This document shows, one piece after another, positions 57,290 through 63,877 of a stretch of DNA of 64,000 nucleotides. The translations under genes were made by a program, and so were the position numbers. The notes beneath the pieces were generated by a model. It was not told the origin of the DNA. It worked only from the letters and a program-made list of their open reading frames with translations, and searched no databases. The stretch is from an uncultured Poribacteria bacterium. Its GTDB lineage: Bacteria > Poribacteria > WGA-4E > WGA-3G. Numbering within the stretch: position 1 is the first letter of the stretch; each line of letters opens with the position of its first letter. The stretch lies in contig OX639973.1 of assembly GCA_951828385.1 (NCBI GenBank), forward strand, positions 5,323,200 through 5,387,199. Reading direction: 5' to 3'.

Positions 57290-58409
57290 TTGTGCTAAAT
57301 AACTAATTGTAATATATTTTTTCACATAATTAAGGCGTTGTGCTCATTGTTTTTGTTCCATCCTTATGTTATCCTATAAGTCACTAAACAAAAGGAGACA
57401 TAAGGATGGACTTACAGTTTACTTTACAACGTTATGCTTTGCAACTGAAAAATCAACCGCGCACCCTCCGTCGGGTTGCGCGGGTCTTCCAGAAGATCAT
57501 GAAAACACTTTATGATACCCACTTCCCGAATGCCGAAGCACGCCGTCCGGGACGCAACCCCGACTCCCAAGATGCCGATATCCTCACAGTCGCATGGTTG
57601 CTTGAATACATCGGTGAAGACAGCGAGAACAAAGGGTATCAACGGATCAAGGCAGAACTGAAAACCGTCTTTCCGAACTTACCGGAGCGTTCGCGTTTCA
57701 ATCGCCGACGGAGAAATCTTTGTGCCGCGAGTGAAGTGATCCGTCGTGCTTTGACGACCTACTTACCGAAGACAGAAGTCTTTATCGTGGATTCTTTTCC
57801 AGTCCCTGTCTGCGATTTCAAGCGTGCGAATACTTCAAAGTCTGATTTCAAGTGGGCAGATGGCACCGGAACTTATGCGACTTATGGACACTGTGCAACG
57901 AAAGGTCTTGGAACGTTTTTCGGTTTTCGCTGCAGCCTGATAACGACAGGTATCGGTGTTCCTGTTGACTTCTGTATGACCGCTGCGAATACAGATGACC
58001 GAGAGGTTCTTCGGCATCTTGCGGAGCAGGGCGAGTATCCGATTCTTCTTGGCGATAAAGGTTATATCTCTGAAGACCTTCAGACAGAACTCATGGAGAC
58101 CGAAGGGAGCGTCTTATTACCGACGCTCAAACGCAATCAGAAGCGACAATATCCCGATGAGTTTCGTAAACTTCAAGTGCGGATACGTCGCCGCATTGAG
58201 ACGACCATCGGTCAGTTGACAGACCAGTTTCATGTGTCTCGTGTGCGTGCGTTGAAGCATTGGGGGTTGCTGACGCGTATGAGCAATAAGTTCGGCAGTT
58301 GTCTGCTAGGTGCTTTCGTGAATCAATGTCTCGGACGCCCCTTGATGAAACTCAAAGACCTCGTTCTCGCATAAGGATATATCTATGCTTACAACATTAA
58401 TTAGCACAA
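57290..58409 (+). mobile_element. IS982-family insertion sequence
   Basis: About 1120 bp. The left end TTGTGCTAAATAACTAATTG (57290) matches the inverted right end TTGTGCTAATTAATGTTGTA (58409 inward) with one small gap. It holds one transposase gene. I see no target-site duplication (CAAACGGG on the left, GTCGTAAG on the right), and the right flank does not continue the hairpin array, so one side was rearranged. Confidence 0.75.
57406..58374 (+). CDS. IS982-family transposase
   Basis: 322 aa, intact. DDE acids are visible: VDSFPVPVCDFKRANTSK (first Asp), ANTDDREVLRHLAE (auxiliary), LGDKGYISEDL (second Asp) and RRIETTIGQLTDQFHVSRVR (Glu). The V-D-S-F-P-V-P motif is typical of IS982. Basic N-terminus. 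Ribosome site AAAGGAGACATAAGG. With both ends present the element may still be active. Confidence 0.9.
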   Translation: MDLQFTLQRYALQLKNQPRTLRRVARVFQKIMKTLYDTHFPNAEARRPGRNPDSQDADILTVAWLLEYIGEDSENKGYQRIKAELKTVFPNLPERSRFNRRRRNLCAASEVIRRALTTYLPKTEVFIVDSFPVPVCDFKRANTSKSDFKWADGTGTYATYGHCATKGLGTFFGFRCSLITTGIGVPVDFCMTAANTDDREVLRHLAEQGEYPILLGDKGYISEDLQTELMETEGSVLLPTLKRNQKRQYPDEFRKLQVRIRRRIETTIGQLTDQFHVSRVRALKHWGLLTRMSNKFGSCLLGAFVNQCLGRPLMKLKDLVLA

Positions 58410-59090: not shown

Positions 59091-60500
59091 TTACACCTCA
59101 ACACGCACAAACGCGAGATACGTTCCCGACAGCAACAGTACAACAAACATCGTTAACAACAATATCTCCATCGCCGAATCGTTAAAATCTTTGCTGAGAC
59201 GCAGTGTATCTTCAAATTTTGGGACTGCTGCTGGCAAGACCTTCCTCTCTGTCATACCTTCACGAACACCGATAATATGGAAGCTCTCCGAATCCGATCT
59301 ATCAATGTCAACGACAAATTCACGGTATTGCCGGGCGTAACGTTCCACATTCTCCACAAATTGCGAATGCCGCGTAAAACCCGTTCCGGCAAAAGATTCA
59401 AGGAGATGTTGAAGGAGAGTAGCGGGTGAAGCGCGAGTGATAGACCGCGCATGTTGAACCTGTGCCATTTGGCTGGTGAGATATTCTTGGTTTAGACGTT
59501 CTATCATTTCTGCTTTTTCAGTGAAGAACGCGCTCTTCGCTGTCAGTGTTTTTTTGTCTACTGCCTCTGACCAGGCCACATAATTGTATCTATCCCAGAT
59601 TTCTTGTTGCATTTGGCCATACTGTGTCCACTTTTCATCAGCGGACATTGATGGTGAGAGTTCACTTGCGATGGAAGCAAGCATACTCGGCATAAAAACG
59701 ACGAAAGTGACCCAAATCAATAGGAGTATCACAAGGCTCACTGCACTCCGTTGCACACGCGCAGATACTAACAGCCCGAAGGCAAGAAAGAAACACGCGT
59801 ATAAGAGTGCGATAAAGAAGATGATACCCAAACGTCCCCAGGCTTCTATATTGAGGTGAACACCGCTTGCGGTGGAAATCATCAAAAGGTTCACCAACGT
59901 CGCAAGCGTAAAAGGGATGCTGATGCTTATCAACGCGCCTAAAAACTTACCGATCAATATCGTGTGGCGTGGTACTGAATTCGCTAACATTAACCGAAGC
60001 GTGCCGTGTTCGCGTTCACCGGAGATGCTATCAAAAGTAAATAAGAGCGCAATCAAACTCAAGACATAAGCGATGATAAATGCCCAATCCACTTTGGTAA
60101 CATCTGGTCCAACGCGCTTCAGGTTTATGTTGGCATCCGGATAGCTCAGTTGCCAGACACCTATTATACCAGTGGAGTATACATAAGGCTTGCTGCCTTC
60201 AATGATGTTTGGCAGCAAGTGATCTCCGCCTTCTGCACAGAAATGCAAAGGTGACGGCTTTTTGTAAAGTTTTCCCGGTCCCTGTTGGGCGAGTTTATAC
60301 AAACTGTCGTCAGCGTGAGACGACAAGAGCTCCAGCGATTCGGCAACAGCAGCGTTATACGTCTGTATCCGCTTTGGATGCTCGCGGAGATGCCCGATGG
60401 CATTGGTTAACATCAATGCTAACAGCAAGAGGGTTGTCAGTGCGAATCGGAGGCTATTGAGGTTGTCGTAGAGTTCGCGTTTTGTGATATGTAATATCAT
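59091..60500 (-). CDS. ABC-2 type transporter permease
   Basis: 469 aa. One N-terminal TM segment (about residues 19-36), a large outside loop, then five or more TM segments at about 135-460. The FTFDSISGEREHGTLRLMLA motif and the following VPRHTILIGKFLGAL coupling helix are typical of ABC-2 (NosY/DUF3526-like) permeases. It starts 2 bp after the paralogous permease gene. No ATPase gene is in the window beside them. Confidence 0.88.
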   Translation of the reverse strand: MILHITKRELYDNLNSLRFALTTLLLLALMLTNAIGHLREHPKRIQTYNAAVAESLELLSSHADDSLYKLAQQGPGKLYKKPSPLHFCAEGGDHLLPNIIEGSKPYVYSTGIIGVWQLSYPDANINLKRVGPDVTKVDWAFIIAYVLSLIALLFTFDSISGEREHGTLRLMLANSVPRHTILIGKFLGALISISIPFTLATLVNLLMISTASGVHLNIEAWGRLGIIFFIALLYACFFLAFGLLVSARVQRSAVSLVILLLIWVTFVVFMPSMLASIASELSPSMSADEKWTQYGQMQQEIWDRYNYVAWSEAVDKKTLTAKSAFFTEKAEMIERLNQEYLTSQMAQVQHARSITRASPATLLQHLLESFAGTGFTRHSQFVENVERYARQYREFVVDIDRSDSESFHIIGVREGMTERKVLPAAVPKFEDTLRLSKDFNDSAMEILLLTMFVVLLLSGTYLAFVRVEV

Positions 60501-60502
60501 TC

Positions 60503-62008
60503 TTACACCTCACTCCGAACGAAAGTCAGGAATATAATTGCGAACAGGACCAAGTTAATCATCAACAGCAGGCATAAATCCGGTAATGCTCGTTTTGCAT
60601 TAATGCTAATATCACTTCTCTGAAAGGCAAATTGTGGCATCAGGTTCCAATCAATCTCACCCTCGGCACCGACGAACCATAGTCGAGACTCAAATATCTT
60701 TTTATCAAGATAATAGTCAATGACTGCCTGATGATACCGTTGAATCGCTATGAAAAAATCTTGTAGTCCATTTAAGTCGGTGCCTGCCCAGGCTTCGGTT
60801 GCCGCGTCATACAGACCGACGGGTGAAAACCTCAATAGCATCTGCTCCATTTTTGCGGGGTGTGTGTAAAGCGCATCCAGTGAGGGTTTTCGGACAAGCC
60901 ACATCCGTTCTGCGGTGTTGGTAACCTGTGGACCCAAAAAGCGATGATAATTCTGAACGTGCGGTACCAATGGTTCAGATTCGGCTTTAAGTGCTTTATA
61001 AGAGAATCCAGTAAGATCGTAGTATAGTAAACTTGATGGATGATGCCTGTACCCCCAAAAAGAGCCGCCGCCTTCACCGCTCAAACCAAAACTCCATTTT
61101 TCGCCTGGCACAGGGTCATTAGCAAGATACTGTAACCGATCTCTATCAAACTCCTCCCATATCTGTTTGATTTGGTTGTAAGCGGAGGTTTGCGTATCGG
61201 GGGGCGGCTCAGTTTTAACCGCGGTCAATATCATATTTGGATACACCAACACTAAAAAACCCCAGACGAACATCGCAAGCATGAGGGCAGTGCCTGTTCG
61301 GTGAGTCACGGCTGAAATCAGCATGCCGATCAGGTAGAACAGTGATAGATAAACAAACGACGTAAAAACGATACCACCGATGCGCAGAAAATCATCAGCA
61401 CTCAAAAAAACAGATGCGGATGTTGTCAGCATAATTAGCACGAGGAGAATACACATCAATAGAGGTATCAGCAGGCATATCATACCGCTAATGTATTTGG
61501 CGAATAGGACTTGACCGCGCCGAACAGGATGCGTCAGTACGAGTCGTAATGTACCACGTTCGCGTTCCCCCGCAAGCGTATCGTAAGCAAAGACGAGTGC
61601 TAACAGGCTCAGAATCCCCTGAAAAATAAAGACGAGATCTATTGAAGAGAAGAGATTGAGAAACGGGTTATCCGCCCCATGTTTTCGAGCATCCCACAGG
61701 GTTGGCACGAAAAAATGATTAACGCGGAGTGTGTTCCCTAATCGTTTGTCTAAACCGACACTAAAAATGCTCAAGGGGTTGGGCGGACGATCAATGGTTA
61801 ATCTGGCTCCTGAATAGGTTGTCGTTTCCAGCATTTCCTGCCGATGCTTTTTGACAGCGGTGTTGTAACTTGTCAACCGCCGCTCGTAATCTCTGATAAG
61901 CACAGTCGTCATAGCAACAACAAGGAGCAACATAATCAAGACGGCTGCTGCGAATCGGAACGTCATTAGGTTGTCAAGGATTTCTCGGCGGATGAGTGTT
62001 GTTAGCAT
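60503..62008 (-). CDS. ABC-2 type transporter permease
   Basis: 501 aa from ATG 62008 (MLTTLIRREILDNLMTFRFA); an upstream in-frame ATG adds 10 residues. Same layout as the next gene: N-terminal TM (about 21-38), a loop of about 100 residues, then TMs. The motif AYDTLAGERERGTLRLVLTH and PVRRGQVLFAKYISGM mark the family. The two permeases may form a heterodimer. They follow the sigma-clamp gene by 49 bp on the same strand, so that protein may control them. Confidence 0.88.
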   Translation of the reverse strand: MLTTLIRREILDNLMTFRFAAAVLIMLLLVVAMTTVLIRDYERRLTSYNTAVKKHRQEMLETTTYSGARLTIDRPPNPLSIFSVGLDKRLGNTLRVNHFFVPTLWDARKHGADNPFLNLFSSIDLVFIFQGILSLLALVFAYDTLAGERERGTLRLVLTHPVRRGQVLFAKYISGMICLLIPLLMCILLVLIMLTTSASVFLSADDFLRIGGIVFTSFVYLSLFYLIGMLISAVTHRTGTALMLAMFVWGFLVLVYPNMILTAVKTEPPPDTQTSAYNQIKQIWEEFDRDRLQYLANDPVPGEKWSFGLSGEGGGSFWGYRHHPSSLLYYDLTGFSYKALKAESEPLVPHVQNYHRFLGPQVTNTAERMWLVRKPSLDALYTHPAKMEQMLLRFSPVGLYDAATEAWAGTDLNGLQDFFIAIQRYHQAVIDYYLDKKIFESRLWFVGAEGEIDWNLMPQFAFQRSDISINAKRALPDLCLLLMINLVLFAIIFLTFVRSEV

Positions 62009-62057
62009 GCAATTTATCCGTGGGTTGTGGGCAGTCAAATGTCCGTCTATAAAAGCG

Positions 62058-63425
62058 TTAAGCGTTCACACCTGGTATTATCAGTGTCGCCTCTACAAAA
62101 TACTTACCTCCGACGCGAAATATCAAAGTAGCGTGTTCATCGGCAAAGAGCATCTGGTTCTCAACGCGTGAAATCCTTACCTCTGAGGAATTGGCAAAAG
62201 TTTGCTCAATTTCTTCGACAGTTTTGAGCGGTACCATGAATCCATCGCTATCCTCGGACAATTTAAGTGGGTCACAATGTGCGAGGGCAAGTTGTTTTCT
62301 AATGGTTGCAGCAGCTTTTGTGCTGTCCTCCAAATAGAGCCCATTTAGAAAGTAACGGGATCCATTCTTTAGGGCCGGCGCAAATTCAGTTTTATAGAGG
62401 ATTGACCGCAAGGTTTCCCCATCAATAGCAAATGTCTCCTTGCCAACAGACGGAAGTTGTGGAAATTCTGCCTCAGCAAGTTCAATGATCTTGCAGGTGC
62501 CATCTCCACAAGTGATTTCAACTCGGTTGTCCGCCGTCGTTGCCAAGTTTATCAGTTTTTCACTGGGTAACCCTTTAACGATATCTGCCAATTTTTGGGT
62601 AGAGACAACAATGGATCCTTCCGCCTCAATAGTTCCTTCAACCTTCATTCTAATACCGATTTCCGTGTCTGTCGCCATACACTCGATCGTGTTGCCTTTG
62701 GCGTGGATGCGGACATTTGATATAATAGGTGGGGTCCTCCGCCCATTTGTGACACCCTGCATCGCTTGTAAGGAGTCCAACAAGTCATCTCTTTTAAAAG
62801 TTAATTTCATTCCAAAACCTCCGTTCAAATGTTCTTGGGAGCGATGCCCTTCTTCAATTGTGGTGTCTTGAATCATGAATTCATACTTCTTTAGTTGTTG
62901 CCGCGCACGGCGAATGCGACTTTTAATCGTTCCTTCTGATACACCTAAAAAGTCGCCTATCTCTGCGTAGGTCATCCCTTTGAAGTAGTGAAGCGTGATG
63001 GCTGTCCGACTGTTCTCCTGCAGCTTGGCAAGCAAATTTTCGACCAAATCGCGTCGCGCTTCAGCAAAAGTGTGAGCGTTTTGCATAGCGACAAATTGGG
63101 AATACGCCTCTGTTTCTATGTCCGTGGTGTCAGGGCCTTCCAGCGGTTCGGTCTGTATCCGGTTTTTTCGGCACCACGCGATACAGAGGCGATCTACAAT
63201 CACATAAATCCACCTCGGAAACTTTGCCGGATCTTCCAAGGTCTCCAATTTCTGATAGACTTGCAGGAAGGCTTCCTGCATGATGTCTTCGGCGATATGG
63301 AAATCCCCAATTTTCCGCCAGGCAAGCGCATGAACCTGTTTCTGGTACTTTCTAACCAGACTCGCAAAGGCAGTCTCGTCACCTGAAAGGATACGTTGGA
63401 TCAATGTAACATCGTCGTTTCGCAT
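62058..63425 (-). CDS. ECF sigma factor fused to a two-domain DNA sliding-clamp (DnaN-like) protein
   Basis: 455 aa in one unbroken frame. Residues about 8-90 are sigma region 2 (GDETAFASLVRKYQKQVHAL, IAEDIMQEAFLQVYQKL) and about 137-187 region 4 (TAITLHYFKGMTYAEIGDFL, SEGTIKSRIRRARQQLKKY). A linker of about 18 residues follows. From Met206 it is like DnaN: FKRDDLLDSLQAMQGV, TPPIISNVRIHA, ATDTEIGI (251-258), FPQLP (321-325) are clamp domain 1; TEFAPALKNGSRYFLNGLYL, MVPLKTVEEIE and FRVGGKYFVEATLIIPG are domain 2. Domain 3 is absent (250 aa of clamp against about 370). GGAGG and a 7-base spacer precede Met206, so a clamp-only product could also be made. Confidence 0.85.
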   Translation of the reverse strand: MRNDDVTLIQRILSGDETAFASLVRKYQKQVHALAWRKIGDFHIAEDIMQEAFLQVYQKLETLEDPAKFPRWIYVIVDRLCIAWCRKNRIQTEPLEGPDTTDIETEAYSQFVAMQNAHTFAEARRDLVENLLAKLQENSRTAITLHYFKGMTYAEIGDFLGVSEGTIKSRIRRARQQLKKYEFMIQDTTIEEGHRSQEHLNGGFGMKLTFKRDDLLDSLQAMQGVTNGRRTPPIISNVRIHAKGNTIECMATDTEIGIRMKVEGTIEAEGSIVVSTQKLADIVKGLPSEKLINLATTADNRVEITCGDGTCKIIELAEAEFPQLPSVGKETFAIDGETLRSILYKTEFAPALKNGSRYFLNGLYLEDSTKAAATIRKQLALAHCDPLKLSEDSDGFMVPLKTVEEIEQTFANSSEVRISRVENQMLFADEHATLIFRVGGKYFVEATLIIPGVNA

Positions 63426-63877
63426 TAGACATCTCCAGAAAGGCTACTTTTATCAACGGAACTTATCAATTGCTATGTTTTATAGGTAGGTGTGCCTACA
63501 CATCGTGAAGAGGCACTCTATTAACTAACTCACGTCACTATATAATGACGCGAATTAGAAAAAAAAAGATGCATTATTTGGGAAAGAAAGAGGAAAAAAT
63601 CGCTGAAGGCAAAAAATTAATTGGTTAATTTCATAACGATGCCCGGCATCCGTTCCCAGTGACCGGTGGGAACCCTGGTTAGAATGCCGATTGCATGCAT
63701 CAACGCAGGGTGCGCGTGTTGCCTCGCAGCGAGAGTCGTCGGGGCGAGTACGCCGCAACACCGCGAAGCAATCCGCAGAAATACCATAGCAATACGCAAA
63801 AACACCGCAAGCAAAAACGCTACTGGGGTTCGGGATTGGCATCCGTAATCCATTCGCGTTAGTTTGCTAAAGCGGTG
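63426..63877. other. Spacer with low-copy repeat words
   Basis: No gene is supported. It contains AAAAAATTAATTGGTTAATTT (63611 on, related to the AATTAATTCGGTAATTT element) and CGCAGAAATACCATAGCAAT-type units (63773-63825) like those at 24180. The minus-strand promoter of the sigma-clamp gene must lie near 63430-63540; I could not pick one. Confidence 0.45.

Follow-up and report, generated by a model that had tools for sequence, protein, structure and literature searches.

The means by which bacteria tie gene expression to replication and division of the chromosome remain an open question. Just one functional connection between sigma factors and sliding clamps has been studied well, namely phage T4 late transcription, in which the sigma factor gp55 acts with the coactivator gp33 and the sliding clamp gp45 (PMC2988020, PMC7892883). 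There, the partners are separate proteins. A gene from an uncultured Poribacteria bacterium (assembly GCA_951828385.1, contig OX639973.1) encodes an ECF sigma factor and a DnaN-like clamp in a single chain. What might a replication clamp do at the end of a sigma factor? The gene lies in a stretch of 64,000 nucleotides, here called the window.

The fusion gene

The gene is a single unbroken open reading frame (ORF) on the minus strand, with an ATG start and a 455-residue product. Its parts are as follows (window positions):

62058..63425, minus strand: sigma-clamp fusion gene, short type A, 455 aa (ORF and translation; Pfam/NCBIfam)
62856..63425, minus strand: ECF sigma part, aa 1-190 (Pfam; TIGR02937)
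62811..62855, minus strand: linker, aa 191-205, TM helix absent (sequence; hydropathy)
62818..62822, minus strand: in-frame Shine-Dalgarno (SD) sequence GGAGG, 7 nt 5' of the internal ATG
62808..62810, minus strand: internal ATG, aa 206, first codon of the captured dnaN
62451..62810, minus strand: clamp domain I, aa 206-325 (PF00712; DnaN fold)
62121..62426, minus strand: clamp domain II, aa 334-435, diverged (PF02767; aa 346-395 of low confidence in the model)
62061..62111, minus strand: C-terminal tail, aa 439-455, occupying the expected start of domain III (like the tails in L031 and L032)

The initial annotation had read sigma regions 2 and 4 and a DnaN-like part in one frame. The ORF and Pfam agree with it, and the motifs it named (TPPIISNV, ATDTEIGI, FPQLP, and RYFLNGLYLE) are found in the sequence. 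Four Pfam models match above gathering thresholds: Sigma70_r2 (PF04542; 1.1e-14, aa 23-89), Sigma70_r4_2 (PF08281; 3.8e-17, aa 126-178), DNA_pol3_beta (1.6e-22, aa 206-325), and DNA_pol3_beta_2 (1e-12, aa 334-435). TIGR02937 scores 106 bits (cut-off 42.9). Among solved structures, the N-terminal part is nearest to SigW (5wuq) and the C-terminal part to beta clamps. The HMM check that the initial annotation proposed thus bears out both sigma regions and the clamp's first two domains, but not a complete DnaN: the dnaN model TIGR00663 aligns over positions 1-229 of 367 only and scores 126 bits, below its cut-off of 137.65. DNA_pol3_beta_3 (PF02768) is not matched in the window protein by Pfam; domain III is missing. 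A clamp is attached, as had been claimed; the missing domain III and the minus strand had gone unmentioned.

Sigma2 and sigma4 without sigma1.1 or sigma3 make the N-terminal part an ECF sigma factor, and the further domain beyond sigma4 places the protein among ECFs with C-terminal extensions. Among ECFs, regulation through such extensions is an accepted mechanism, with WD40 in ECF57 as one case (PMC8999054). The arrangement is the same: sigma2 and sigma4, then a C-terminal domain, in one chain; as in ECF57, sister ECFs here bear WD40 or propeller extensions (PMC8999054). The partners differ, because here the extension is a replication clamp (FtsZ or FtsZ-DnaE in sister genes) that retains its own ribosome-binding site. 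Clamps are not mentioned in the review of ECF extensions (PMC8999054), nor are sigma factors in a Poribacteria genome paper. No description of sigma-DnaN, sigma-FtsZ, or sigma-DnaE fusions was found in the open-access literature, in keeping with the initial annotation, to whose knowledge the ECF-clamp fusion was undescribed.

Conservation

The source genome is a single 6.66-Mb contig. It encodes another fusion, L002, of 575 aa, in which no clamp domain is missing and which scores 230 bits against TIGR00663, over the cut-off of 137.65, and three free dnaN genes besides. A wider search, another of the checks proposed at the outset, found type A orthologues with open frames (E<1e-100), mostly of about 575 aa, in 27 of the 38 genomes of the genus, and a distinct fusion, type B, in seven. 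Type A or type B is present in 33 of the 38. At the thresholds used for the 85 genomes of the phylum, type A also occurs in a sister genus, and nowhere beyond these two genera. The short form is found in two Ca. Poribacteria MAGs as well, the only two close named relatives that a pattern-based scan of genome contigs returned. In the clamp tree, the short two-domain form is its own clade (the window copy, L031, L032, and L042; support 100/97).

Pairwise dN/dS is mostly 0.1-0.4 for the clamp part and 0.1-0.2 for sigma, which indicates that the clamp has been maintained with some relaxation; the clamp part is under purifying selection. It is true that most orthologues are longer than the window copy and that domain II has diverged in the latter, as might follow from an assembly or frame error or from a chance pseudogene. 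Against this stand the full-length paralogue on the same contig, the 27 genomes with orthologues, the independent MAGs, and dN/dS well below 1, so that such an origin has a negligible probability. The frame split by a sequencing error that the initial annotation had named as fatal to its reading is contradicted by the second copy, the open orthologues, and the two MAGs. With the contig complete, artefact is ruled out: the sigma-clamp fusion is real.

A phage origin was also considered and rejected. The fusion has no relative among viral contigs, no phage record reaches 80% coverage of the query, and the matches listed involve DnaN parts alone.

The junction

In all 33 type A fusions, the clamp starts at an in-frame ATG that follows a purine-rich SD sequence (GGAGG, GGAGA, GAGGG, or GGGGG), although the residues that this sequence encodes vary (NGG, NGD, NEG, or HEG). 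The internal leader resembles that of free dnaN: compare tacGGAGATTTTGGGATG (L005) with aatGGAGATTTTGGAATG (L002). With a canonical anti-SD sequence assumed, mean SD:anti-SD pairing over 568 codon columns is strongest at the junction (-8.8 kcal/mol), against -6.3 kcal/mol at the gene's own start and -7.2 at free dnaN starts. SD-ATG junctions also precede HTH, S9 peptidase, methyltransferase, and FtsZ partners.

The retained SD and ATG imply that dnaN was captured as a gene, ribosome-binding site included. Being in frame, they also suggest that a stand-alone clamp is probably made by internal initiation. Known systems of internal in-frame initiation likewise have a strong SD and an ATG inside an ORF at a domain boundary. 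Here, by contrast, the functions on either side of the boundary are unrelated, and the internal start was once that of an independent gene. This lineage assembles regulators by taking whole genes, ribosome-binding sites too, behind a sigma domain.

Is the clamp still a clamp?

Residues are numbered as in E. coli DnaN (reference sequence identical to PDB 1mmi), with roles in the peptide cleft, at the dimer interface, and at R24 that we take to be those of the E. coli protein. In single-copy free DnaN, the cleft and dimer sites are mostly intact. In full-length type A clamps, the cleft has R176 changed to Q in 29 of 30, and Tyr153 and M362 are often changed; the dimer interface carries L82W (27/30), Y106 to R or H (21/30), and G300D (30/30); and R24 is often lost. 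The window copy lacks most cleft residues altogether. It shows none of the marks of a functional DnaN: three domains, a TIGR00663 score over the cut-off, and an intact cleft and dimer interface. Its resemblance to bacterial DnaN, shared with the full-length paralogue, is one of sequence and fold.

Structure prediction, also suggested by the initial annotation, agrees on the fold. Both models resemble DnaN in their clamp part (L002, best match 6pth, E 1e-27; window copy, E 3e-13), and residues 346-395 of the window copy fall below pLDDT 50. The AlphaFold models are moderate (pLDDT 66 and 75, pTM 0.46 and 0.43), so the domain folds are usable and their arrangement is not.

Without domain III, the window clamp cannot form the canonical two-protomer, six-domain ring. 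Type A, the window copy above all, looks like a clamp turned to a new use rather than a working processivity ring.

Altered cleft residues are seen elsewhere too: tandem duplicate dnaN genes (L229, L004, and L007, the last at G000:C1:6354763-6357171) occur besides a single-copy dnaN at another locus, and in the tandem pair G174, R176, and M362 are altered.

A second capture, and fusions to FtsZ and DnaE

Type B joins a different ECF sigma factor, about 28% identical to that of type A, to a complete three-domain clamp. Its internal ATG is preceded by AAGGAGG. Type A is absent from six of the seven type B genomes (loci L165, L166, L167, L168, L169, L190, and L191). The clamp tree gathers type A into one clade (100/100) and type B into another (100/99), the latter nested within single-copy free DnaN (96/90). 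These branches force two origins, and a single origin of all clamp fusions is rejected: dnaN was captured twice, independently, each time with its own ribosome-binding site. Type B clamps keep the cleft (6/6) and most dimer residues.

Sigma factors of the type B clade occur joined to FtsZ as well, and 37 of the 38 genomes carry some sigma-FtsZ. A short form of about 405-430 aa, with the GTPase part only, is present in 36 of the 38. In one of 411 aa, the match stops at position 204 of 353 of the FtsZ profile. The short loci inspected (L254, at G000:C1:5517977-5519209, minus strand; L253; L175:465-1685; L180:10906-12129; and L183:558-1766) stop short of the T7 loop region; where the junction was checked, it has SD-ATG. 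G002, one of the two genomes without the short form, has a long frame.

The long form, as Pfam and NCBIfam confirm for L258 and L259, runs ECF sigma, a complete FtsZ, and Pol III alpha together in a single frame of about 1430 aa. The frames run at L258:1778-6079 (G000:C1:4711777-4716078) and L259:1648-5943. The polymerase part has PHP, a palm with PDIDID, fingers, and HHH, and the DnaE match ends at position 881 of about 1150. In G035 and G036, too, a PF07733 search locates the polymerase part within the one ORF, and many genomes of the genus have similarly long frames that match the same query. The genomes checked also contain intact free FtsZ and DnaE.

Promoter and neighbourhood

Upstream and downstream of the window gene lie:

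63547..63551, minus strand: -10-like GCGTC of an ECF-type promoter
63568..63573, minus strand: -35-like TGCATC of an ECF-type promoter
60503..62038, minus strand: ABC-2 permease gene directly downstream (PF12679, 2e-29; same order in relatives)
59091..60500, minus strand: second ABC-2 permease gene (PF12679, 6e-33)

Among the upstream regions listed, 30 of 35 have a TGCAYC-N17-CGTC-like motif about 45-125 bp upstream of the fusion; it also precedes the fusion in the distant sister genus, and a similar motif precedes many paralogous ECFs. A strict version has 14 matches in the genome, ten of them directly before ECF genes; the reversed control has none. A putative ECF-type promoter shared by the fusion gene and many paralogous sigmas fits autoregulation.

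The fusion gene and the downstream permease gene probably form an operon. Fourteen genomes have sigma-clamp followed on its own strand by sigma-FtsZ, at a distance of 0.75-9 kb (typically about 3.7 kb); where looked at, ABC-2 permease genes, mostly two, stand between them. The window copy retains the ABC-2 pair and has no adjoining sigma-FtsZ. After the permeases come a QueF-like gene (PF14489; 58545-58940) and beyond it an ORF judged by eye to be transposase-like (57406-58374). A repair or replication operon was sought and none seen; the neighbours are ABC-2/MacB permeases. The link to replication drawn by the initial annotation, or one to the cell cycle, is strengthened by the FtsZ and DnaE fusions and the conserved sigma-clamp/permease/sigma-FtsZ cluster. 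Neighbours that are permeases rather than repair or replication genes lend no support to loading or activation of this protein from a clamp around DNA.

Extensions of the sister ECFs

The source genome has about 75 further ECFs of the same clade. A TM-like segment follows sigma in 53 of the 73 sequences examined, and in most sister ECFs scanned WD40, kelch, LRR, or other repeats lie beyond it. A minority without the TM helix carry a clamp, HTH, S9 peptidase, redoxin, M61 peptidase, or methyltransferase. Where the clamp sits, most sister ECFs thus have a TM helix and an extracytoplasmic propeller or repeat domain.

Models for sigma-clamp function

Because the clamp occupies the place of these sensory extensions, it would most likely gate the sigma domain in response to a replication partner. 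The favoured reading, to which we give a probability of about 0.45, takes the protein for an autoregulated ECF sigma factor. The captured sliding-clamp paralogue would be its C-terminal regulatory extension and act as a cytosolic sensor or regulator, in place of the membrane-anchored extensions of sister ECFs. The clamp part would bind a partner of the replication clamp, or compete with free DnaN for one, and this would free or restrain the sigma domain. The ABC exporter operon (in full-length loci, sigma-FtsZ also) would then be switched by replication or division status, and clamp protein initiated internally could tune the response. Counting against this reading are the altered partner-binding cleft of type A and the low-confidence sigma/clamp orientation in the models (pTM 0.43-0.46); no clamp-binding peptide was identified in a candidate partner.

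A broader and more tentative proposal is that Poribacteria possess an ECF family whose sensory domains are cell-cycle machines (DnaN twice, FtsZ, and FtsZ-DnaE), with sigma-DnaN and sigma-FtsZ framing one ABC-transporter operon and transcription covalently wired to replication and division status. Gene expression in these sponge-associated bacteria may be wired directly to both. With sigma-clamp and its FtsZ and replicative-polymerase sisters in hand, the first two in a conserved cluster, direct coupling is testable with purified proteins.

The initial annotation had instead envisaged a holoenzyme loaded or activated from the DNA clamp, much as in T4, where gp45 encircles DNA and tethers gp55-RNAP (PMC7892883, PMC2988020). 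Here a clamp ring, alone or mixed with free DnaN, would be loaded at forks or nicks and scan sigma-RNAP to a promoter, coupling transcription to replication. Most type A and all type B clamps do have three domains, and internal initiation would provide free protomers. In T4, gp55 has only a region-2-like part and reaches a separate clamp through a short C-terminal peptide, not a fused clamp. The Poribacteria protein has regions 2 and 4, a covalent clamp that is itself the C-terminus, and no gp55-like peptide tail. Its promoter resembles an ordinary -35/-10 ECF promoter. The window clamp has two domains and is not ring-competent in the known way, and domain III is absent from its three relatives also; in full-length type A, the rewritten dimer interface and cleft and the frequent loss of R24 count against loading. 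With domain III missing and the cleft altered, the window copy is unlikely to act as a loaded ring in the manner of T4. Such a mode is possible for type B, whose intact peptide cleft and largely intact dimer residues would make those fusions the better candidates; as an account of the fusions in general, tethering is unlikely.

Less credence still is given to nested-gene capture, in which sigma genes would acquire downstream genes along with their ribosome-binding sites; the clamp translated on its own would then be the product of use, and in-frame fusion no more than tolerated read-through. It draws on the SD-ATG placed exactly at the junction with clamp, HTH, S9 peptidase, methyltransferase, and FtsZ partners, stronger there than at the gene's own start. 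Yet each of the 33 type A fusions, and each type B fusion, has an open linker that keeps the phase, when two of three phases would separate the proteins; sister ECFs are plainly fused to TM-propellers; and captured clamps differ from free DnaN at functional sites. Quite improbable is a brake, in which altered or truncated clamp, FtsZ, and Pol III alpha, made upon sigma induction, impede replication and division and slow growth. The missing domain III, the incomplete sigma-FtsZ and fused DnaE, and the existence of intact free copies would suit such decoys; full-length clamps in many fusions and an operon that codes for permeases would not, and the fused DnaE, which retains the PDIDID metal-site motif, may be active.

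Other ECF loci

About 14 long ECF genes with propeller-like tails lie within 50 kb at G000:C1 ~1521700-1573300, a cluster that probably arose by tandem duplication. At L006 (G000:C1:3856957-3859083), two adjoining ECF sigmas resemble each other in their C-terminal parts, one of which weakly matches HTH, and once more the junction has SD-ATG. Several relatives have a similar gene close to sigma-clamp.
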